Made by a program: the position numbers and the translations under genes
IMG/VR virus record: IMGVR_UViG_3300023184_007882
Coordinates: 1-21,614 of that record
Strand: one strand, 5' to 3'
DNA from: a virus
Length of the DNA: 21,614 bases
In this document: positions 3,752-21,614 of the stretch, one piece after another
How positions within the stretch are numbered: position 1 is the stretch's first letter
Layout: every line of letters begins with the position of its first letter
Notes under the pieces: generated by a model
Database searches by the model: none
Seen by the model: the letters and a program-made list of their open reading frames with translations, nothing else
What the model was told of the DNA's origin: nothing

Positions 3752-5557
3752 TTATCTTAACTCTTTCAAGTCAAATGTTCTAATTCCATCAACTGTGATT
3801 CTTCCGTAGAATCTGTTGTTCACCATTTTCTTAGCGTATCTAGTCATGATACCTTTGATTGGTGTGAAGTTGAATGGATTGTACATTGTTGGAGTCAATT
3901 GTAATGGTACATATGGTGCGTAGATATAACCTGTATCTAACAATGATGTACCTTTATGTCCAATCAACACTTGGTTTGGTGGGAAGTAAGGGTCTCTATA
4001 AACTTGGTATCTACCAGCTAAAGTACCTACTCTTTCAATACCCATGTTGTATTGGTCTTGCTCTGGAGCCGCGTTTGATACGTGGAAATATTCCAAATCA
4101 TCAAATACTGCTGAAACTTCAGATGAAACAACAATCCAGTTAGCACCACCTCTCAAAGTAGATTTGTGGATTTGTGCTGACAATTGGTTGATTGCTGTAA
4201 TCAATGTTTGGTTCCAGTCTTTTTGAGTGTAAGGTTGAGCGTTACCACCTAATCTCTTCCATCCGTTGTAATCCCATCTTAAGTTCCATGCTGCACCTTT
4301 TCTAAGGTCTCTCAAGATTTCTCTATCAATTTCAGCCGCAACTTGCTCAGACAATAAAGCTGTTAATTCAGCTTCAGCGTCAATGTTGTGGAATGCTGCA
4401 ACGTCCTGAGCCATTTCAGGTGACCATTGAGCTCTTAATTTTCTTTCAGTTACAGAAACTGTTACTGACATAAGGTCAAATGAAACCTCACCAATCTTAT
4501 CTTCGAATTCTAAGTTCTTATATAATCTATAAGTTGCTGAGAACGCGTTGTTAGTCGCTGTAGAAGATGAGAAAGTTGAACCTGTGTAACCGTCCATAGA
4601 ACCACCACATGTGATACATACTGGAACTTGAAGGTCGATTTCAAGATAAATTTGACCGTTAACATCACAAATGTTGTCATACTGACCGCCATCTGTTAAT
4701 GAGTTAGGGAATACCGCTGTTGCGTTGTTGTTACCGTATTGAACGATACCTTTACCATATCTTTGAGTTACAACTCTGAATAAGTAAGGACCACCACCTG
4801 CAGTAGTTGTGTTTGTTGAAACACCATAGATAGTCAAATCAGACAAGAATGATTCTGTGTCGATTGGGTTACCATCAGGACCAATTAATTTACCTGCTCC
4901 GTCAGATGCGAAACCTGACATGATAACTAATACTTTTCTGTAATCAGTCAAAGCATAAGCTGCTGGTTCAAGGTTTAAAGTTGTGTTGTTCCACTGTGCT
5001 GTAACAACAGAAGTAACTGCAGAAGTAACAGCAGTGAAAGAACCTTTTGAATAGTCAAATAAACCTGGAGGGTCTAATGCTGGTTCATTACCTTCATAAA
5101 ATCTATCATAAAGGTCTCTACCATCGTTATAATTGTAACCTGCGTTTGGAGATGTTGGACCATTTGGTGCTCCGTAAGGTGCATAATGCTCTGAATAACC
5201 TGCTGGTGCAGTTGGGTCATAACTTTGGATGTTAGGTACAAAATAGAACAATTTACCGATTGGTAAGTTCATAGCTTGTACAGATACGATGTCATTTGCT
5301 AATAATTTAGAGAATACTCTTCTAACAATTGGGAAAACAACTGTTTCAAATGCACCTGTGTCAGATGTAGATGATGCCTCATTAATTAAATAAGAAGCTT
5401 GGTTTTCATACAATTGAGCAACGTTTTCTCTCATGTGACCTTTAAGACCCTCAAGGAATCCTAATTTGTCCCATTTGTTGATTGTGTCTTCTTTGATAAC
5501 TTTAAGGTGCTTAAGACCGATGTTACCAACAAGACCTGATTCTAATAATGCTCCCAT
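3752..5557 (-). CDS. 23: major capsid protein, T4 gp23 homologue
   Basis: A 601-residue shell protein forming the hexamers of the head. Clear gp23-family blocks include FETVVFPIVRRVFSKLLAND (residues 70-89), NLPIGKLFYFVPN, the helical region after RKLRAQWSPEMAQDV, AEIDREILRDLRKGA, and the C-terminal FYGRITVDGIRTFDLKEL. The N-terminal 60 residues look like the pro-segment removed by the gp21 protease: INE|A at residues 58-61 fits the (I/L)xE rule of the T4 protease. It is about 80 residues longer than T4 gp23; an extra Gly/Tyr/Pro-rich stretch at about 110-170 probably accounts for surface insertions. A CITCGG motif near 320 could bind metal or be chance. Its 5' leader is A-rich with no Shine-Dalgarno and no clear TATTTATW box. 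Confidence 0.97.
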   Translation of the reverse strand: MGALLESGLVGNIGLKHLKVIKEDTINKWDKLGFLEGLKGHMRENVAQLYENQASYLINEASSTSDTGAFETVVFPIVRRVFSKLLANDIVSVQAMNLPIGKLFYFVPNIQSYDPTAPAGYSEHYAPYGAPNGPTSPNAGYNYNDGRDLYDRFYEGNEPALDPPGLFDYSKGSFTAVTSAVTSVVTAQWNNTTLNLEPAAYALTDYRKVLVIMSGFASDGAGKLIGPDGNPIDTESFLSDLTIYGVSTNTTTAGGGPYLFRVVTQRYGKGIVQYGNNNATAVFPNSLTDGGQYDNICDVNGQIYLEIDLQVPVCITCGGSMDGYTGSTFSSSTATNNAFSATYRLYKNLEFEDKIGEVSFDLMSVTVSVTERKLRAQWSPEMAQDVAAFHNIDAEAELTALLSEQVAAEIDREILRDLRKGAAWNLRWDYNGWKRLGGNAQPYTQKDWNQTLITAINQLSAQIHKSTLRGGANWIVVSSEVSAVFDDLEYFHVSNAAPEQDQYNMGIERVGTLAGRYQVYRDPYFPPNQVLIGHKGTSLLDTGYIYAPYVPLQLTPTMYNPFNFTPIKGIMTRYAKKMVNNRFYGRITVDGIRTFDLKELR

Positions 5558-7833: not shown

Positions 7834-8559
7834 TTATTTTCCTAAAAAATCGTTCAATTTTTTCATTAAGTCAAGAGACTTGTCCATTGAACCTGAAGAA
7901 GATTGTTGTTGTTTCATCTTTTTTTCTTCGTCTAAGTTTTCTTCATATTTGTCTCTATCTTCAGGATTAGAAAATAAATAGGCTCCAGGAGTTGATGGTG
8001 ATGATACTAAATCAAAACATATTAATTCAAAATCATCTTGTACTTCATTTCTTTCTCCAACTTTTTTTAATGAACCTACTCCTCTTGAAGATATTCCAAG
8101 TGTAACTCCTTGTCTCATTAAATTTGCTGCTTGGTCACCTTTTGTTGAAACAATTCCTCTTTCATGAAAACCAGGAGAAGTTAACAATTTTAATTTTCCC
8201 ATTAGGATATTTCTATCCCACCAAATGTCGGTGATAAGATGAGAAACTCTATCTAAATCAATCAGTGATGATTCAGGGTGATTTAATTCAGAAGTTGATA
8301 AACCTTTGGCAATAGCTTTTTTATAATTTTCAGCCTCTCTCTTTAAAATAGGTTCAGGATAAAATCTACCATTTCTATTAGGGGTGTTGTATTTTTGTAA
8401 AACTGCGTAAAATTCAAATGGATTTCTGTAGTCTAAATTTGCCGCTTCTTTTAAGATTTCAGCGTTATGTTCATCTTTTGGGGAAACCCAACCTGCGTCC
8501 ATTTCAATTAGGATACCATGACCAAGTTCATTAGCCTCTAAAATTCTCAAATTTTTCAT
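7834..8559 (-). CDS. 21: prohead maturation protease, T4 gp21 homologue
   Basis: A 241-residue serine protease of the herpesvirus/T4 gp21 fold that cleaves capsid and core proteins during head maturation. Recognisable blocks: FYAVLQKYNTPNRNGRFYP (51-69), the His motif ELNHPESS (H94), LITDIWWD, LLTSPGF, the nucleophile motif GISSRGVGS (S157/S158) and FDLVSSPSTPGAYL (D183 region). The last 40 residues are a charged, Gln/Ser-rich tail, possibly a self-cleaved extension. A TATTTATC box lies 12 nt upstream; no Shine-Dalgarno. Confidence 0.95.
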   Translation of the reverse strand: MKNLRILEANELGHGILIEMDAGWVSPKDEHNAEILKEAANLDYRNPFEFYAVLQKYNTPNRNGRFYPEPILKREAENYKKAIAKGLSTSELNHPESSLIDLDRVSHLITDIWWDRNILMGKLKLLTSPGFHERGIVSTKGDQAANLMRQGVTLGISSRGVGSLKKVGERNEVQDDFELICFDLVSSPSTPGAYLFSNPEDRDKYEENLDEEKKMKQQQSSSGSMDKSLDLMKKLNDFLGK

Positions 8560-8602: not shown

Positions 8603-9037
8603 CTATTCTGTTTTTTTGGATAAGGAGAAATCAAAATATCTATTGCTTTTTATATTATTCTTGAAAATGTTTTTAACAATTTGTTTGACCGATTCTTTTA
8701 TTTCTAAGGATTTGAAGTCAATTTCTGAAACCGTATAAAGATTGACTTCTAAATTAAAAAATGATTTTTTACCCTCGGAGATTCCGCTTGTTCTTAAATC
8801 TAAATCTACAATACTTTTTTCTTGAAAGATTTTTTGGTTTATGGAATTGAATACTGAATGTTTAATTTCTCTACTCAAGTTCCCAACTATTCTATTCCAA
8901 TTGTCATTTTCATTTTTGGGTGTAATCCATGATTGAATGTTAATATAGATTGATTTTAAATTTTTAGAATCTACTGTTCCGTAAACTGATTTGATAGGGT
9001 TGTATAAATTCAACTTTACACTTTTTCCTTTTTTCAT
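8603..9037 (-). CDS. hypothetical protein of the head module, 144 residues
   Basis: Lys/Asn-rich mixed alpha/beta protein with conserved-looking strands (SIYINIQSWITP, FNLEVNLYTVSEIDF) and a C-terminal helix (VKQIVKNIFKN). I recognise no family. Its position between portal and protease genes is where T4 has the small core genes 67 and 68, but the beta content argues against a simple core peptide. It is separated from the bS21 gene by a 95-bp divergent intergenic region. Confidence 0.65.
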   Translation of the reverse strand: MKKGKSVKLNLYNPIKSVYGTVDSKNLKSIYINIQSWITPKNENDNWNRIVGNLSREIKHSVFNSINQKIFQEKSIVDLDLRTSGISEGKKSFFNLEVNLYTVSEIDFKSLEIKESVKQIVKNIFKNNIKSNRYFDFSLSKKTE

Positions 9038-9094: not shown

Positions 9095-9110
9095 GTCAAA
9101 AATTTTTGAC
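9095..9110. promoter_or_regulatory. perfect 16-bp palindrome, operator candidate for bS21
   Basis: GTCAAAAATTTTTGAC is a perfect dyad 22 nt before the bS21 ATG. Its right half supplies a TTGACC that could act as a -35 or -33 element, so a repressor bound here would block the promoter. Confidence 0.5.
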
Positions 9111-9132
9111 CTTTTTAAGATATATGTAAGAT

Positions 9133-9318
9133 ATGCTAATAATTCAAATTAAAAACGGAGAGAATATTGAAAAAGCTCTCAAAACATTGAAGTCTAAGGT
9201 TATTAAGACAAAACAAAATCAAAAACTTTTTGATAAAAAAGAGTTTACCAAAAAGTCAGTGGTAAAAAGAAAAGAGTTATTAAAGGCAATTTATATTCAG
9301 AAAAAAAAACAATCTTAG
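9133..9318 (+). CDS. rpsU: phage-encoded ribosomal protein bS21
   Basis: A 61-residue bS21. The match covers the full protein: MLII-x-IK-x-GENIEKALK at the N terminus, K/T-rich middle helix with F38, then KKSVVKRKELLKAIYIQ. These are the usual bS21 signatures (GENIxxALK, SVVxR, KAxYIQ), and the MLIIxxKxGENI start is typical of Bacteroidota. In the 30S subunit bS21 sits near the 3' end of 16S rRNA; in Bacteroidota it helps sequester the anti-Shine-Dalgarno. The gene is on the strand opposite to the surrounding head genes and ends in a 4-bp overlap with its convergent neighbour. No Shine-Dalgarno precedes the ATG, and no late box is present. The copy has lost none of the core residues, so it is probably functional. 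Confidence 0.95.
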   Translation: MLIIQIKNGENIEKALKTLKSKVIKTKQNQKLFDKKEFTKKSVVKRKELLKAIYIQKKKQS

Positions 9319-10013
9319 ATTGACTCTTCTAAATTTTTCAATTTAAGGAAATTAACTTGGTCAAATTTTTCACCCTTCAGTCTATCAATAGTTTCAGATA
9401 TTTTTGTTTTCAACTCAAATTCTTCTTCTTTTTCCAAAATTGATTGAAGTTTGTTGATAGTACTTTCTTTCAATGTTTCAAACTTTGTTTCCAAAGAATT
9501 TGAATCTTCAGATATTAATTGAAAAAATTCTTTTTTTGAATTTTCATCAAGTGTTTCAATATAAGTTCTTAAAGTTTGGTTTGCGATATTCACCATTGAT
9601 TTTATAGGAATATTGATTGATTCCTTTATAGAATTAGGCTTAGAAGTAATCAAAGAAATAATATTTTTCTTTGCATTAATCCTTTCATGTAAATTAAGTT
9701 GATTTGTGTTAACTAATAAATCAATATCAGAATATTTGTTTTCAACATTTTCTTCTAAAGTTTTAGGTAACTTAATTGAAGGTAAAATTTTTGATAATAA
9801 AGAAATTCCTTCTTCTAAAAATTCTTTTGCATCCGATTCGGAAAGACCTTGAGGTGTACTCAATTGGTCATACAATGAGTAAGCTTTTGAGATAGATTTA
9901 TCATTCAATACATTTTGCTTGAACTCTCTCAAAGATTTCTTGAAATCTTTTTCATTTTTGTAGGACTCAAGAAGATTTTTTTCAATTATGGATTTAATTG
10001 TTCCGAAGGTCAT
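9315..10013 (-). CDS. helical protein in the gp67/68 position, possible prohead core protein
   Basis: A 232-residue Lys/Glu/Asn-rich, almost wholly helical protein with few aromatic residues and no cysteine. It follows the portal gene by 21 nt, where T4 has the small prohead core genes 67 and 68. Composition fits a scaffold or core protein, but I see no sequence match that proves this. The N-terminal IIEKNLLES contains LLE|S, which would suit the gp21 cleavage rule. It has a TATTTATT box 13 nt upstream. Confidence 0.75.
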   Translation of the reverse strand: MTFGTIKSIIEKNLLESYKNEKDFKKSLREFKQNVLNDKSISKAYSLYDQLSTPQGLSESDAKEFLEEGISLLSKILPSIKLPKTLEENVENKYSDIDLLVNTNQLNLHERINAKKNIISLITSKPNSIKESINIPIKSMVNIANQTLRTYIETLDENSKKEFFQLISEDSNSLETKFETLKESTINKLQSILEKEEEFELKTKISETIDRLKGEKFDQVNFLKLKNLEESI

Positions 10014-10034: not shown

Positions 10035-11906
10035 TTAGGAATTTAGTAACTTATCCAATTCTTTTGAAATTTCTCCTAAAGATTCTTGTGCGTGTCCTAA
10101 ATCAATGAATTTATCACCATCAATTAGGTTGTTTTCTATTAAAATATTCAAGTTATCAAGTCTTGATTCTGGAACTGTACCCGCAGGTGCCGCGCCCGTT
10201 TCAGGTGCCGCTTCTGCTCCCGCTTCAGGACCTGGTGGAGGTGGTGCTCCCGCCCCAACTTCCTCCGCTCCTCCCGCTGGTGGTGGAGGTGCTCCTAACT
10301 CCTCAGTTCCGCCTGGTGTAGTTGCCGCACCTGCTGAAGGTGTTGCTCCCGATGCACTACCGTAAAGTTTGTCAATATTATCAAATATTCCTGTCTTAGT
10401 GATGACTGTAGGTGTTGCTTTAAGCTCTTCACCAACAGCTCTTTCAATTCTTTGTTGTTGTAAATCCAATCTAATTTCTTCATCTGACCATCCGAAGATA
10501 TGTTTTTTAGCCCATGTAGAAGAAGTTGCTTGAATCCCATTTCCTGGGTCTGCAACCAAATCTTTGTAAAGCAAGATTTTTTCTTTCCACACATCAACTT
10601 TAAGTAAATCAGCTTGAGTTGATGGATTTGTTAAACCTAATGTAAAGTTTTGTAATTCATCTTCAAAACCCAGTAGGAAAAGATGGACAATTGCAATCTT
10701 ATTAAGTTCTTGCAACATACTCTTTTGGATTCTGTTGATTGTACGGGCAAATCTAATATCTTGTAAAGCCAAATTTTTTCCATCACCAACAACTTCCTCA
10801 AATCCTAAAAATGCTTTTGGTACGCGAAGAGCAGTTAATAATTTCTTTTGGATATATTCAATATCAGCAATTTCAGATAAATTTTGAGCACCTGGTAAAG
10901 TATCAATAGGACTCGGCGCTGCTGGGTCTCTAACGGGAACGAAATAATCTTGGTCAACCGCCATTTGGTTGAACCTCATATCCACATTACCTGTTTTACT
11001 ATCAACAATCTGTTCTCTTTTAAACTTATTGGCTACACGTTGTACATATGCTTCAACATCATCATCATTCATGTTTCCAACAAACACTTTGAAGATTCTT
11101 CTTTCAGGTGCTCTTGAAGTTCTGTAGATTAACATTGCATCTTCACAAAGTAAAAGTTGTTTCCAAGTTCTTCTTGCTTTTTCCAACATAGAAGTTCCAT
11201 AAGGAAGTTTTCTATCATCACCTAACAATCTAAAGTGAGCAATTTCCCATGATTGAAATTCCATGTTTTTGTTCTTCCATGTGAAATGTAAGGCTTTTTT
11301 ATCTTTGTCTAATTCTTTAGTAATATCTACAGAAATTTTTTGACTCACACCAACCTCATGTCTTTCAATTTCAATTGTTGGTAATTGTTGAACTCCTGTA
11401 ACTCCTTTTTCAGGGTCTAATTTTAAATAAACAAAGTTGTCTCCATACTTACATGTGTTTCTTGTCCACATTGGCAAGTTGGTGTTGATATCTAAATTGT
11501 TATTAAACAAATCAGCTAAAACTCCTTTTATCCTTTTTGATTCAGAATAGATTTGTAGAATGAAACCATCTTCATTTGTTGTTGTAGATTCTTCAGCATA
11601 AATGTCCAAAGCGGCAGAAATTTCTGGAGTATACTCCATAGATTCATAGTCATATTGTGCAGACAATCTTGTTGGCTCATAATAAATTGCTTGAGAATAA
11701 AGGTTATTCTCAACTTTCGCCCATTGATTGGCCAAGTAAAAAGTTTGTTGAGCTTGAAGTTTTTCAGTCTCATATTCTTGTCTACTTGTTGTACGCAACA
11801 ATTCTTTTTTATCAAACTTGAAAGTTGGATAATCTTGATTTAATAAAGAATTGGGTCCGAATGTTTTGGACAATCTCTGCCAAACCGTCATGTTCTGTTC
11901 TGCCAT
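10035..11906 (-). CDS. 20: portal vertex protein, T4 gp20 homologue
   Basis: A 623-residue portal forming the dodecameric ring for DNA entry and tail joining. Family blocks: YDYESMEYTPEISAALDIYA (86-105), MWTRNTCKYGDNFVYLKLDP (about 145-164), AHFRLLGDDRKLPYGTSMLE, the long helix ARRTWKQLLLCEDAMLIYR, RRIFKVFVGN, and TALRVPKAFLGFEEVVG followed by LALQDIRFARTINRIQ. After about residue 510 comes a Pro/Ala/Gly/Glu-rich tail (to about 580), then a short helical end. That tail is absent from T4 gp20 and looks disordered. The ATG at 11906 is the first start after a TATTTATA box, with a 28-nt gap. Confidence 0.97.
   Translation of the reverse strand: MAEQNMTVWQRLSKTFGPNSLLNQDYPTFKFDKKELLRTTSRQEYETEKLQAQQTFYLANQWAKVENNLYSQAIYYEPTRLSAQYDYESMEYTPEISAALDIYAEESTTTNEDGFILQIYSESKRIKGVLADLFNNNLDINTNLPMWTRNTCKYGDNFVYLKLDPEKGVTGVQQLPTIEIERHEVGVSQKISVDITKELDKDKKALHFTWKNKNMEFQSWEIAHFRLLGDDRKLPYGTSMLEKARRTWKQLLLCEDAMLIYRTSRAPERRIFKVFVGNMNDDDVEAYVQRVANKFKREQIVDSKTGNVDMRFNQMAVDQDYFVPVRDPAAPSPIDTLPGAQNLSEIADIEYIQKKLLTALRVPKAFLGFEEVVGDGKNLALQDIRFARTINRIQKSMLQELNKIAIVHLFLLGFEDELQNFTLGLTNPSTQADLLKVDVWKEKILLYKDLVADPGNGIQATSSTWAKKHIFGWSDEEIRLDLQQQRIERAVGEELKATPTVITKTGIFDNIDKLYGSASGATPSAGAATTPGGTEELGAPPPPAGGAEEVGAGAPPPPGPEAGAEAAPETGAAPAGTVPESRLDNLNILIENNLIDGDKFIDLGHAQESLGEISKELDKLLNS
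10170..10365 (-). repeat. Pro/Ala/Gly-rich low-complexity segment in the portal gene
   Basis: Portal residues about 515-580 consist of runs such as GAPPPPAGGAEEVGAGAPPP. The DNA here is visibly GC-rich in an AT-rich window and has imperfect short repeats of GCTCC/GGTGG type. Confidence 0.85.
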
Positions 11907-11942: not shown

Positions 11943-11962
11943 GTTATTTGGCACCAAATAAC
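11943..11962. repeat. 20-bp inverted repeat at the terminase/portal junction
   Basis: GTTATTTGGTGCCAAATAAC on the minus strand: 9-bp perfect arms around TG. It covers the last terminase codons and stop and abuts the portal's TATTTATA box. As RNA it could be a weak terminator, but no U-run follows; as DNA it could be an operator. Confidence 0.5.
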
Positions 11963-13701
11963 CACCCATATTTTTGGTAATCGGCTCGGGATGGACCTTG
12001 ATTAATTGGACTTTGTCTACCCATTTGTGGAACCAAAGGATTGAAATAATCTGATGTATTTTTGTTCTCATTCATAACAGAGGTCCATGAATTTAACATT
12101 GCCTTGGTATGATTGAGATTTTTCTGTAAAGATTGGAATGATTTTTCCGCAACATAAATTGCCATAGAAATACCCATGATACAATCATCATGATGTCCTT
12201 TCTGATGGTCGGGTCTTCCATTTATATAAATGAACGTATTCATTTCATTATATAATCTATGAGAATAAATTTTAAATTCATGTCTCACGGCTTCCTCTAA
12301 AGAAGCAATAATTTGAACTCTTTTTGCATTGAAATTTATTCCAGGAATTTTTTCATTTAATTTTGGGTCCCACTTCCATTTATTTTTTGGGTCAATGTTG
12401 TCAATATAAAATCCTCCTTGATAATTTAACTCTTGAAGCTTTCTGGCGGTTGAAACTCCCATACCTCCTGTCAAATCCACAACACAAAACGCATTGTACA
12501 TTGTTCCCCATTTATATGCGATTTCCGCAGTAATATCAGGTGGAACTTTACCTACATATTCCAAAACCTGTTCTCTCTCATCAAAATCAATAATTTGAAT
12601 ACAAGAAAAATCTTCAGAGTCTCCTCTTGAAACATCCACACCCATCACATATTTGTGACCACCTACAGGTTCTTTAAAAATCCAAAGCGACCCTCCCATC
12701 AATTTGGCTGATGGTTCTCTAAGTTGGTTTTTCGCAATATTTTGCATTAAATCAGACTCAAAAACGTTATCACCCGAACCTAAAAAGTTACATTCCAACT
12801 CCTGAGCTACTTTTCTTCTGTCAAATTTCAATTTTTTTACCATACCCTCAAACCACGCAGAACAAGGTTTGTAACCTTTCTGAATATAATCTGTTGTGAT
12901 ACTATGGTCTCTTTCATATGGATTGTCAATTGATAAATCAACAACAGTTCCTTCAGGATAATCTTCTCTATTAAGTAAAAAATGAACCAAATCATTTGTC
13001 TTAACCATATACAAGTCTTTTGTATATCTTGGGTCACGATACCAATACATCTCAGAGATTTTGAACTCATTCATTCCTCTTAATGCTTGGTCATAAATTT
13101 CATAGTAAATTGGGTCATATCCGTTTGGAGTAGATACAACAATCACCTTACCACCTGTAGAGAGTGAGGCCATACAGGCAGACCAGAAGTCATTGTCAGC
13201 CTCAATGAACGCCGCCTCATCGAAAATAAGAATGGTCGGAGTATAACCACGTAATGCGTCTTTTGAAGTTGCTACGGCTTTAACCTCACAGTCATTTGTT
13301 AATTTGAAATGTCTTTGTGAGTTTTTTTCAGCTGAAAATCCAACCCCAACCCATGCTGGCCATTGTTCTGTAAAACTCCTAATTTTATTAGCCATCTCAA
13401 CTGATGTGTCCAACTTATTTGCAATGATTAGAATTTTTTCAGGCTTTTGTTTTTTTGCGAAAACTAATTTTTTTGATGCCCAAGCTGCCGTTACCGTAGA
13501 AACTCCAGCTTGTCTGTATTTTAATGCAATATTTTCATTATGAGCATCATAATCTTCAATAAGGCTAACTTGGTCAGGGAATAAATCTAGTGGGACATAT
13601 TTTGATACTGTGTTATCATATGTCTGTAAATAAGTACGGAGTGCATAAGGTGTATTTCTCATGCACTTTGTAACTTCTATAATTAATTGTTCTTTGGTCA
13701 C
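11944..13701 (-). CDS. 17: terminase large subunit, T4 gp17 homologue
   Basis: A 585-residue ATPase-nuclease that pumps and cuts DNA. ATPase: Walker A-like KYRQAGVST (61-69), Walker B ILIFDE (157-162; D161, catalytic E162), coupling motif VVSTPNG (188-194). Nuclease (RNase H fold): MGVDVSRGD with D356, CVVDLTGG with D409, and HHDDCIMG with D505/D506. The Walker A has Val-Ser where T4 has Gly-Lys (RQxGxST); the arginine variant is common in phage terminases. The start is GTG at 13701, 8 nt after the previous stop; the next ATG (13665) would remove the conserved-looking N-terminal helix. It is the last gene of a five-gene operon. The small subunit is not identified. Confidence 0.96.
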   Translation of the reverse strand: MTKEQLIIEVTKCMRNTPYALRTYLQTYDNTVSKYVPLDLFPDQVSLIEDYDAHNENIALKYRQAGVSTVTAAWASKKLVFAKKQKPEKILIIANKLDTSVEMANKIRSFTEQWPAWVGVGFSAEKNSQRHFKLTNDCEVKAVATSKDALRGYTPTILIFDEAAFIEADNDFWSACMASLSTGGKVIVVSTPNGYDPIYYEIYDQALRGMNEFKISEMYWYRDPRYTKDLYMVKTNDLVHFLLNREDYPEGTVVDLSIDNPYERDHSITTDYIQKGYKPCSAWFEGMVKKLKFDRRKVAQELECNFLGSGDNVFESDLMQNIAKNQLREPSAKLMGGSLWIFKEPVGGHKYVMGVDVSRGDSEDFSCIQIIDFDEREQVLEYVGKVPPDITAEIAYKWGTMYNAFCVVDLTGGMGVSTARKLQELNYQGGFYIDNIDPKNKWKWDPKLNEKIPGINFNAKRVQIIASLEEAVRHEFKIYSHRLYNEMNTFIYINGRPDHQKGHHDDCIMGISMAIYVAEKSFQSLQKNLNHTKAMLNSWTSVMNENKNTSDYFNPLVPQMGRQSPINQGPSRADYQKYGWLFGAK

Positions 13702-17512: not shown

Positions 17513-18523
17513 TTAGTTGTTTAATCCGTTAAATCCTCCAATTAAAACAGCGTTTAGTTGAACTGCAATTCCGTTTTCAGTTGCAAATCCTGGATGAGGT
17601 ACTTGTGTTCCTGGAGGTAGAGTACCACCACTCATTGAACCTTCCATCGCTGCAGTATACTCATAAAATTGGTTCACTGAAGTTCCTGTATATACAACGC
17701 CACATTCCGCACAATCTGTGAACGGACCATCAGCATAAATTGCTGTACTGATAATTGGTCCATAACTTGTATCGGTTACATAATAACAGTTATAATCCAA
17801 ATTGTTATTATCAAATGTAAACAAATACATCTGTCCAATAGTTGGTGAAACTCCTGAAATTTCAACAATTGATGGAGTACCGAGACAGTCTACAATTCTC
17901 CAAAAACCTGGAGGTGTTGGGGTTGGTGTCGGAGTTGTTGTTGGTGTAGGGGTATGAGTTCCTGTAACACTTGGAGTATTTGTTTGTGTTGCTGTTACTG
18001 AAGGTGTAGGTGATTTAGTTGCTGTATTAGTTGGAGTTACAGCTGGAGTTCCAGTTGGTGTTGGCGTTTGTGAATTTGTTGGTGTTTGAGTTGTTGTCAC
18101 ACTCGGAGTTGGTGTTACTGATTTGGTCGGTGTAACACTTGGAGTTACCGTTTGTGTTGTAGTCACACTCGGTGTAGGTGTTTGTGATTTTGTTGGAGTT
18201 ACTGACGGTGAAACTGATGGAGTTATTGTTGACGTTGGAGTAACTGATGGTGTTCGTGTAGGTGTTTGAGTTACTGTTGGCGTTGGAGTCACAACCGCTT
18301 GACAAGTTGCACAATCACCATAATCAACTGACATTGTTAAAACTTTATCAACACCTGTTGCTGGTTCTGCATTATCAATAATGTCATAACAACCTTCTGT
18401 AGTCCCGCCTGTGAAGGTTAAATAATAGTTACCATTAACCGCAGGTAATGATGAACTATCAAAATCAATTAAGATTGCGGGGCCGCCACCACAAGCACCT
18501 AAAAGATATGTAACTAAAGCCAT
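17513..18523 (-). CDS. Thr/Pro/Ser-rich linker protein with duplicated Cys domain, probable virion surface protein
   Basis: A 336-residue protein in three parts. Residues 9-77 and 211-277 are two copies of one small beta-rich domain: each has a Cys near its start (C11; C213), a YLTF/YLFTF strand, a Cys before a Tyr (C45; C246), then DCxxC (71-74; 271-274). Between them, residues 78-206 are an almost pure Thr/Pro/Ser/Val linker (TPTPSVTTTQ-type units). The C-terminal 60 residues are Gly-rich. Such an extended linker between small disulphide- or metal-stabilised domains suits a fibre or decoration protein exposed on the virion, possibly O-glycosylated (inference). It has no signal peptide. TATTTATA lies 12 nt upstream. 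Confidence 0.8.
   Translation of the reverse strand: MALVTYLLGACGGGPAILIDFDSSSLPAVNGNYYLTFTGGTTEGCYDIIDNAEPATGVDKVLTMSVDYGDCATCQAVVTPTPTVTQTPTRTPSVTPTSTITPSVSPSVTPTKSQTPTPSVTTTQTVTPSVTPTKSVTPTPSVTTTQTPTNSQTPTPTGTPAVTPTNTATKSPTPSVTATQTNTPSVTGTHTPTPTTTPTPTPTPPGFWRIVDCLGTPSIVEISGVSPTIGQMYLFTFDNNNLDYNCYYVTDTSYGPIISTAIYADGPFTDCAECGVVYTGTSVNQFYEYTAAMEGSMSGGTLPPGTQVPHPGFATENGIAVQLNAVLIGGFNGLNN
17906..18292 (-). repeat. Thr/Pro/Ser low-complexity tandem repeats
   Basis: This region codes residues 78-206 of the linker protein. The DNA is built from degenerate short units reading GGTGTT, GGAGTT or TGAGTT, with longer repeats of about 50-60 bp (for example the pair around 18100 and 18160). Such DNA is prone to length change. 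Confidence 0.85.
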
Positions 18524-18558: not shown

Positions 18559-19299
18559 TTATTTAAGTGTTTCTTGAATTTGTCTTTCAACTGACAGTTC
18601 TTTATCCAAAGTTTTGTTCAAAGTGTCAAACAATTTTTGAATGTGTCCTGACCTTCTGAGGAATTTGAAGACCAAATTTTCGTAAGAAAGTTCACCATCC
18701 TTTTCAAGACCTGAGTTTCTATACTCTTTTAATTTGGTTTTTAAGGTATCTAACTTATCATTATCACCATCTTCAACCGCCGATTCAATCTTGTCAGTCC
18801 AAGTTTTAATTTTGTGTTTAAGAACTTCTTGGTCAACTTTATTTTCCATTCTACTTGGCTCACTAATCCATTCGTTGTTCATTATTGAATATACACCCGA
18901 ACTATAATGAGTTTCTTCAGTGTCTTGAGCATACAATTCAACATCATATCCATAGATTTTGATATCATGTTTGTCATTGAAGATTTGTTTTTTCAAATTA
19001 TATAGTTCTTTGTAAAGCTCAGCATCCTCCTCATACTGTTGTAACTCTACATGGACGTGTAAATCGAAGTCTGAAAATTCTGACCAATTAAAATTTGCTA
19101 ATGAACCTGTTAAAACCACATCTTCCACAAAAACATCTTCTCCAAGATAATCAATAAACTCTTCGGCAATTTTCATGAGAGCTTTTCTTACTTTTGGTAC
19201 CATTGTGGCACTACTTGGGTCATCGGGATTTTCCCAAACCTTTGGGTTCAAAGTTTCTTTGACTGAAAAACTATCAAGGATTTTTTGTAAATTATTCAT
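18559..19299 (-). CDS. nucleotidyltransferase-fold protein
   Basis: A 246-residue protein with the pol-beta-type nucleotidyltransferase signature: VVLTGSLANFNW (G65-S66), then SDFDLHVHVEL (D77, D79), and a third acidic site in the strand YDVELYAQD (E121). These are the Gly-Ser and three carboxylates that bind the nucleotide and two metals, so the enzyme looks active. The C-terminal 100 residues are helical and charged (KHKIKTWTDKIESAVEDG, then FKFLRRSGHIQKLFD). Similar proteins occur in T4-like phages of marine bacteria, substrate unknown. A TTG at 19305 in the same frame is less likely than the ATG at 19299, which follows GAGG directly and TATTTATT by 4 nt. Confidence 0.85.
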   Translation of the reverse strand: MNNLQKILDSFSVKETLNPKVWENPDDPSSATMVPKVRKALMKIAEEFIDYLGEDVFVEDVVLTGSLANFNWSEFSDFDLHVHVELQQYEEDAELYKELYNLKKQIFNDKHDIKIYGYDVELYAQDTEETHYSSGVYSIMNNEWISEPSRMENKVDQEVLKHKIKTWTDKIESAVEDGDNDKLDTLKTKLKEYRNSGLEKDGELSYENLVFKFLRRSGHIQKLFDTLNKTLDKELSVERQIQETLK

Positions 19300-19303
19300 C
19301 CTC

Positions 19304-19311
19304 AATAAATA
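19304..19311 (-). promoter_or_regulatory. TATTTATT box before the nucleotidyltransferase gene
   Basis: Only GAGG separates the box from the ATG at 19299. If the box is a -10-like element, the mRNA would be nearly leaderless. Confidence 0.45.
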
Positions 19312-19914: not shown

Positions 19915-20313
19915 TTAGAGGATACTAATTCTTTTTTTATCTTGTTTTTGAAAGTTTGGTACAAAGACTGTCAACAAACCATCTTCAATTGTTGCTTCAA
20001 TTGAGCTTGGATTATATCCTTCACCTATTTTAAACTGTTTGTTAATAGACCTTGTTTTTTCCTCTCCATTTAATTTGTAAGTTCTCTTACCTTCAATGTG
20101 TAAAACACCATCTTCCATTTCAGCTTTCAAATTTGTTTTGTTAAATCCAGGTGCATCAAAGAAAAGATAAGCCCCATCTTTTGTGTGATTAATTTCATAG
20201 GTTTCCCCTTCTGAATCATTTTTAACCACCGTAGAGGTGTAATTGTAATTTCTTCCTCTGTTGTTGAAGAATGTGTCAAGTAATTCATTAAATTCTGAAC
20301 TTCCGTAAATCAT
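19915..20313 (-). CDS. Hsp20 small heat-shock protein
   Basis: A 132-residue ATP-independent holdase that keeps unfolding proteins soluble. The alpha-crystallin domain spans about 45-120: GAYLFFDAPGFNKTNLKAEM, then GVLHIEGKR and the signature IEATIEDGLLTVFVPN. The C-terminal RISIL supplies the I-x-I motif (129-131) used for oligomerisation. The N-terminal arm is short and Asn/Tyr-rich. Hsp20 genes recur beside structural genes in T4-like phages of marine bacteria, so a role in virion protein folding is likely. It is divergent from the ClpC gene and ends in its own terminator. The leader has TATAAATA about 35 nt upstream and no Shine-Dalgarno. Confidence 0.95.
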   Translation of the reverse strand: MIYGSSEFNELLDTFFNNRGRNYNYTSTVVKNDSEGETYEINHTKDGAYLFFDAPGFNKTNLKAEMEDGVLHIEGKRTYKLNGEEKTRSINKQFKIGEGYNPSSIEATIEDGLLTVFVPNFQKQDKKRISIL

Positions 20314-20514: not shown

Positions 20515-21614
20515 ATGCATGACTTAATGGATGATGACGACAAAATGAGTAAAAAGCAAAAACAGTCCTCTGACAGCAGTACGCCTGTTTTGGACAACTT
20601 TAGCCGTGATTTGAATAAACTTGCCGCTGAAGGTAAATTAGACCCTGTCATTGGACGTGACAGAGAGATTTTGAGAATTGCTCAAATTCTATCCCGTAGA
20701 AAAAAGAATAACCCTATCATCATTGGTGAACCTGGTTGTGGTAAGACTGCAATTGTAGAAGGTTTGGCAATGAAAATTGTTAGTGGTGAATGTCCCCGTA
20801 ATTTAGTGGATAAAAGAATTGTCAACTTGGACTTAACTTCAGTTGTTGCTGGTACAAAATACCGTGGACAATTTGAAGAAAGAATGAAAGTTATTATTGA
20901 AGAGTTACAAGCTAATCCTAACATCATTGTATTCATTGATGAAATCCACACATTGGTTGGTTCAGGAAACTCTGCAGGTTCTATGGACGGTTCCAACATT
21001 TTCAAACCCGCCCTTTCTCGCGGAGAACTTCAATGTATTGGAGCAACCACATTGGATGAATTCAGAAAGAACATTGAAAAAGACGGAGCTCTTGAACGCA
21101 GATTCCAAAAAGTAATGGTAGAACCTTCATCAGTTGTGGAAACCATTCAAATCCTCAAGAACATTCGTGAAAAATATGAAAATTTTCACAAGGTTACTTA
21201 CACTGATGAAGTAATTGAAACCTGTGTGAAATTGGCTGACCGTTACATCACAGACCGTGAATTCCCTGATAAAGCTTTTGATATTCTTGATGAAGTCGGA
21301 GCCCGTATGCAAACTGAGTTGAAGGTGCCTGAAGCTATTGAAGAATTGAAAAAGAAAGCGGCTGAAATCCGTCAACAAAAAGTTGAGGTTGTGAAGAAAC
21401 AAAACTATGAACAGGCTGCTCAATTGAGAGATAAAGAGAAAAAATTGTTAGATAAACTTGAGACCGAAAAGGCCAAGTTTGAAGAAGAAATGCAAAAAGA
21501 CAAACAAAAGATTAGTCTTGAGGATGTTTATGATGTTGTATCTAACATGACTAAAATACCTGTGAACAAAATGAGTGTTGATGACGCTAAAGCATTGGTA
21601 AACTTGGATAAAGA
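20515..21614 (+). CDS. clpC: ClpC-like AAA+ unfoldase without N-domain (3' end outside window)
   Basis: The first 366 codons of a Clp/Hsp100 ATPase. An in-frame TAA at 20509 precedes the ATG at 20515, so the N terminus is real. The protein starts with 25 charged residues, then STPVLDNFSRDLNKLA, the linker and D1 start of Bacteroidota ClpC. The Clp N-domain (about 145 residues, adaptor and substrate binding) is missing. D1 is intact: Walker A GEPGCGKT (71-78), pore loop AGTKYRGQF (112-120), Walker B IVFIDE (138-143), arginine finger region ALERRF (192-197). A UVR-like middle domain (QNYEQAAQLRDKEKKL, about 296-311) marks it as ClpC and not ClpA/ClpB. D2 should follow beyond the edge. Whether it works with host ClpP or alone cannot be seen here. 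It has a host-like promoter and two dyads upstream. Confidence 0.95.
   Translation, partial: MHDLMDDDDKMSKKQKQSSDSSTPVLDNFSRDLNKLAAEGKLDPVIGRDREILRIAQILSRRKKNNPIIIGEPGCGKTAIVEGLAMKIVSGECPRNLVDKRIVNLDLTSVVAGTKYRGQFEERMKVIIEELQANPNIIVFIDEIHTLVGSGNSAGSMDGSNIFKPALSRGELQCIGATTLDEFRKNIEKDGALERRFQKVMVEPSSVVETIQILKNIREKYENFHKVTYTDEVIETCVKLADRYITDREFPDKAFDILDEVGARMQTELKVPEAIEELKKKAAEIRQQKVEVVKKQNYEQAAQLRDKEKKLLDKLETEKAKFEEEMQKDKQKISLEDVYDVVSNMTKIPVNKMSVDDAKALVNLDK

Follow-up and report, generated by a model that had tools for sequence, protein, structure and literature searches.

Genes for bS21 are the commonest ribosomal protein genes of phages. Flavobacterium is one of a small number of bacteria for which an effect of bS21 status on the choice of mRNA is known. 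The closest described systems are 47 Bacteroidetes phage genomes of up to 331 kb (about 293-331 kb; TerL clades a-e), in which bS21 lies on the reverse strand in the head block and is transcribed together with structural genes (Chen et al. 2022, PMC9723584). In these phage proteins, position 54 is aromatic or His and the first helix is divergent; the divergent residues were placed over the mRNA-binding side, and the phage protein was proposed to replace host bS21 late in infection (PMC9723584). Another phage-encoded bS21, from Pelagibacter phage HTVC008M, has been shown to enter E. coli ribosomes, which were then badly impaired in vitro (Mizuno et al. 2019, PMC6375957). Unlike the protein described here, it comes from an unrelated host group and is not of the Bacteroidota type. 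On the host side, it is mainly bS21-free ribosomes that translate Flavobacterium rpsU, and they do so by way of an extended Shine-Dalgarno (SD) sequence; the same authors speculated about phage bS21 (McNutt et al. 2023, PMC9976891). In E. coli, leaderless mRNA is selectively translated by ribosomes without bS1, uS2 and bS21 (PMC4929434).

The DNA analyzed here (the window) comprises all 21,614 bases of its IMG/VR record and is probably a fragment of a phage genome; related contigs are as long as 321 and 326 kb. The initial annotation had described a complete 61-residue bS21 encoded opposite to the portal and protease genes. Both points hold. The open reading frame matches PF01165 in a Pfam profile search (35.8 bits, E 6.5e-9, curated cut-off 27), with residues 4-54 aligned to positions 2-52 of the 55 in the profile, and the surrounding T4-like head genes (gp23-, S77 protease-, gp20- and TerL-like) all lie on the minus strand, with bS21 on the plus strand (Table 1). 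As in the phages of Chen et al., bS21 is thus opposite TerL, portal, protease and major capsid protein and between two hypothetical genes, and its protein is alike in position 54 (aromatic or His) and in the divergent first helix (PMC9723584). Phage-borne bS21 is therefore not new as a kind, since both the arrangement and the idea of replacement were published in 2022 (PMC9723584). Chen et al., however, do not discuss the bS21 start region, SD or promoters (PMC9723584). What is new here is the loss of the SD, a two-class motif and a nested clade that lacks bS21, none of which was found in the literature searched, whose partial coverage does not establish priority.

Table 1. Features of the window around the bS21 gene.
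Feature	Position	Strand	Remarks
Major capsid protein (T4 gp23-like)	3752..5557	-	E 1.1e-71
Prohead core protease (Peptidase_S77)	7834..8559	-	E 1.1e-20
Hypothetical protein, 144 aa, divergent bS21 neighbor	8603..9037	-	well conserved
Perfect 16-bp palindrome GTCAAAAATTTTTGAC	9095..9110		between divergent genes; one half conserved in relatives
Promoter-like element GATATATGTAAGAT	9119..9132	+	directly against bS21 ATG; putative transcription start
bS21 (rpsU-like) gene	9133..9318	+	61 aa, ATG to TAG, Tyr54 kept
Hypothetical protein, 232 aa, convergent bS21 neighbor	9315..10013	-	stop overlaps bS21 stop by 4 bases
Portal protein (T4 gp20-like)	10035..11906	-	E 9.2e-79
Terminase large subunit (TerL)	11944..13701	-	78-91% identical in relatives holding TerL

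Searching IMG/VR with the window bS21 protein retrieved 80 loci (69-84% identical), and the set was enlarged by searches with TerL, whose relatives were 85-91% identical to the window, and by searches with the divergent 144-aa neighbor. bS21 was present in 225 related loci, with 121 distinct full-length proteins, and on contigs that had bS21 and both flanks it was always enclosed by the same two genes. Given homologues in 225 loci at a constant position, the gene is not there by chance. Both flanking genes were found in 253 loci; bS21 was between them in 220 and absent in 33 (13 distinct). All these locus counts include near-copies and so do not represent independent events. The linkage of bS21 with its co-transcribed neighbor described by Chen et al. 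is therefore not strict, as these 33 loci keep both neighbors. Their gap holds a hairpin-like sequence, possibly a terminator, and a search across six contigs of bS21-less loci, one of them 309 kb, found no bS21 anywhere. A tree built from both flanking proteins places the 13 distinct bS21-less rows in a single clade (SH-aLRT 99) within the bS21 carriers, an indication that the gene was lost once. Aligning phage and host bS21 and building a tree, as the initial annotation had suggested, placed a thinned set of 62 phage proteins in one clade apart from the hosts (support 100/99), on a stem of 1.12 changes per site; this tree is based on few alignment columns. The phage bS21 group shows a single origin and one loss.

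The best PDB sequence matches of the window protein were 7jil (Flavobacterium johnsoniae, E 8e-11) and 9i5v (E 2.7e-10), both Bacteroidota-type bS21 chains, as the initial annotation had supposed; the remaining PDB bS21 chains had E 0.2 or worse. From its sequence, the gene is confirmed to encode a Bacteroidota-type bS21, and incorporation of the protein into 30S subunits is predicted. The bS21 type and the SD-poor genes agree with a Bacteroidetes host. At position 54, all 121 distinct phage proteins have an aromatic residue or His (110 Tyr, 8 His, 3 Phe; Tyr in the window), and Tyr54 is the residue that stacks on the anti-SD tail. This fits the earlier suggestion that the phage protein keeps ribosomes SD-independent; the initial interpretation as a whole is partly supported. 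Family, length, Tyr54 and most basic positions are common to the Flavobacterium host protein (PMC9976891; 7JIL) and the phage protein.

Residues 18-30 of the window protein form a phage-type core, TLKSKVIKTKQNQ. Seven residues within it (19, 21, 23, 24, 27, 28 and 30) are at least 90% conserved within phages and within Flavobacterium but differ between the two groups. As the initial loci had been found with bS21 patterns containing that core, loci obtained via TerL and the neighbor gene were counted as well; in these, the core holds with few exceptions. These seven residues are the conserved phage-specific differences, rather than the C-terminal KKKQS proposed earlier, as this tail varies among the phage proteins and carries no signature. 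The huge phages LR745206, LR756501 and LR756502 encode a Bacteroidota-type bS21 that is 52-59% identical to the window protein, with a core closer to host-like than the window's. In the bS21 of other phage contigs, the core is of a type in between those of the host and the window, e.g. SKVIKTKLMSEL.

Chen et al. (2022) suggested that residues 18-30, which lie on the first helix close to where the mRNA runs, change which mRNAs are initiated and favor phage over host mRNAs. The seven group-specific positions would suit such a switch of specificity, as would the divergent positions that Chen et al. locate over the mRNA-binding side (PMC9723584). We nevertheless regard it as unlikely: it has no known mRNA feature to act on, host and phage mRNAs both being SD-less, and the core might just as well confer resistance against exchange, degradation or a host defense. 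The 121 distinct phage proteins also look conserved by purifying selection, judging from pairwise dN/dS values that are mostly 0.02-0.17 (0.25 in a single low-divergence pair). Purifying selection, the retained contact position 54 and transcription alongside the structural genes (PMC9723584) would all be compatible with simple dosage, in which, late in infection, the phage supplements a protein whose supply is limiting for new 30S subunits, and specificity is unchanged. However, the long stem of the phage clade and its fixed core exceed the needs of supply, and we consider this account improbable.

Pairing energies of the SD region were -18.4 to -22.8 kcal/mol for host Flavobacterium rpsU (80 loci, 15 distinct upstreams) and -4.9 to +1.9 kcal/mol for 38 distinct phage bS21 upstreams, with no overlap between the ranges. 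They were computed with a Flavobacterium-type 16S tail (AUCACCUCCUUUCU). Across the 121 distinct phage upstreams the median was -1.1 and the minimum -6.6, with none below -8; the window upstream, at about -1.5 kcal/mol, lies above the -13 below which an SD is counted as extended. Phage bS21 copies have lost the extended SD that the host uses for bS21 autoregulation. The host gene is autoregulated and is preceded by a leader with an extended SD (dG near -20); its phage counterpart lacks this SD and, it seems, the leader as well. Most phage bS21 genes outside the window group are also without an SD: the 735 kb phage LR756501 has an SD-like AAAGGAGGA (dG -12.1), and the other outside phages checked have none. 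A phylum-wide survey of host SDs was partly usable, as many top matches had no ATG at the expected place. SD pairing is weaker in 861 phage ORFs than in a mock region, which upholds the earlier description of the phage mRNAs as SD-less. The loss of the SD in phage bS21 also follows simply from SD-poor phage genomes, and this counts against the explanation that we favor below.

The initial annotation missed the regulatory part of the locus, namely the lost autoregulatory SD and a promoter-like motif that abuts the start codon. In the window this motif, TATATGT, starts at -12 with no SD, and relatives mostly carry GATATTTGTAATAT at the same site. The motif starts at -11 to -13 in 91 of the 121 phage bS21 upstreams with a loose pattern list, and in 62 of 121 with a stricter pattern, compared with 2.7 in shuffles and 0/64 for host rpsU; in some relatives it is at -14 to -22 or missing. 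A related motif, TATTTAT, recurs before other phage ORFs at two distances. Among 836 ORF upstreams from six related records (gene calls were mechanical), it starts at -13 to -11 in 103 (1.8 in shuffles) and at -23 to -20 in 63 (2.4 in shuffles), but at -18 to -14 in merely 15 (3.0 in shuffles). Host loci checked for a TATTTAT distance peak showed none. A late promoter in the T4 orientation (ATAAATA) was rejected, as it is not positioned before ORFs. The usual bS21 form is TATTTGT (TATATGT in the window), unlike the common TATTTAT, so reading by the same polymerase is uncertain.

The tight distance between motif and ATG could also mean a translation-start element on an mRNA with an ordinary leader. 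The promoter reading depends on predicted transcript ends, the bS21 form departs from TATTTAT, and at -12 the 321 kb phage shows no enrichment of TATTTGT-like variants, all of which would suit a translation signal. Yet the two distance classes, and the A-rich leader that follows the motif in the distant class (-23 to -20), are as expected of a promoter, and TATTTAT is nearly absent from genes at most 10 nt behind a same-strand upstream gene (6/335). We therefore think a translation signal quite unlikely and continue with the promoter reading. In F. johnsoniae, transcripts begin 4-5 nt downstream of the -7 element (PMC6847099). Should the phage motif have the same spacing, transcripts of the first class would start about 2 nt or less from the ATG, and bS21, which is in this ATG-abutting class, would be predicted to have a near-leaderless mRNA. 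The two classes suggest widespread near-leaderless and short-leader transcripts across related jumbo phages. F. johnsoniae transcripts are mostly leadered (PMC6847099), and no leaderless late transcripts of Bacteroidota phages were found in the literature searched, with partial coverage.

The bS21-less 309 kb phage retains both TATTTAT classes, with 32, 1 and 21 genes in the three distance bins (32 at -13 to -11), so the two-class architecture is independent of phage bS21. That one clade has lost bS21 and still keeps both promoter classes shows that these phages can do without the gene and that the abutting promoters are independent of it. The persistence of these 32 genes also argues against a switch of specificity, for which the abutting class would be the obvious phage feature, and it weakens the leaderless class as a candidate target of phage bS21.

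The best reading, which on balance we hold to be probable, is that the phage encodes a replacement for host bS21 that is free of autoregulation and leaves the anti-SD tail buried. During infection, the phage protein would substitute for host bS21 in 30S subunits, presumably late, as suggested by Chen et al. (PMC9723584). With Tyr54 and the shared basic positions it would fit the normal site, and the 16S 3' tail (anti-SD) would stay buried, so that ribosomes would keep reading the SD-less phage mRNAs. Host rpsU, which needs its extended SD, is strongly translated only by bS21-lacking ribosomes, while output of phage bS21 would be independent of ribosomal bS21 status, because its gene has no SD and has the motif against its ATG. 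As phage bS21 fills empty subunits, the host feedback loop would hold down host rpsU, and since the host gene would be repressed by its own loop, replacement would favor the phage protein. That the phage copies uniformly lack the host's bS21-regulating signal would explain simply, and in a testable way, how they could prevail, and Flavobacterium reporters suitable for such tests are already available.

By analogy, replacement of host bS21 is plausible, as the Pelagibacter phage protein enters E. coli ribosomes (PMC6375957), and translation of a leaderless mRNA at any bS21 level is plausible given that E. coli ribosomes without bS1, uS2 and bS21 select leaderless mRNA (PMC4929434). The impairment of E. 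coli ribosomes by the Pelagibacter phage protein (PMC6375957) and the existence of the bS21-less clade stand against our favored reading. A further version, that phages turn the host bS21 loop against the host with a near-leaderless mRNA that has no SD and escapes the loop, by filling bS21-free subunits and thereby switching off host rpsU, is a tentative idea that we think somewhat unlikely. If true, the ribosome pool would convert to phage bS21 without any host-directed protease.

Both neighbors of bS21 also occur in bS21-less relatives. The 144-aa neighbor has no Pfam, PHROG or NCBIfam match above the curated cut-off, and its confident structure model matches only an uncharacterized phage protein at E below 0.001. 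That it might be a bS21-specific partner, or the protease speculated about by McNutt et al. (PMC9976891), is not supported, as it is kept without bS21. The conserved half of the palindrome, GTCAAAA, was considered as a bS21 control element and rejected, since it is widespread and persists in phages without bS21; for the same reason, it more likely serves the divergent gene on the opposite strand, as the -35-like TTTTTGAC of that gene.

Elsewhere in the window, 17513-18523 (-) encodes a protein in which a long stretch consists of Thr/Pro-rich repeats (TPTPT-like), and 18559-19305 (-) encodes a predicted nucleotidyltransferase (PF01909, E 2.6e-5). Near the head genes are an Hsp20-family protein (19915-20313, -) and a Clp-type AAA ATPase (20515-21612, +) that runs off the window end.
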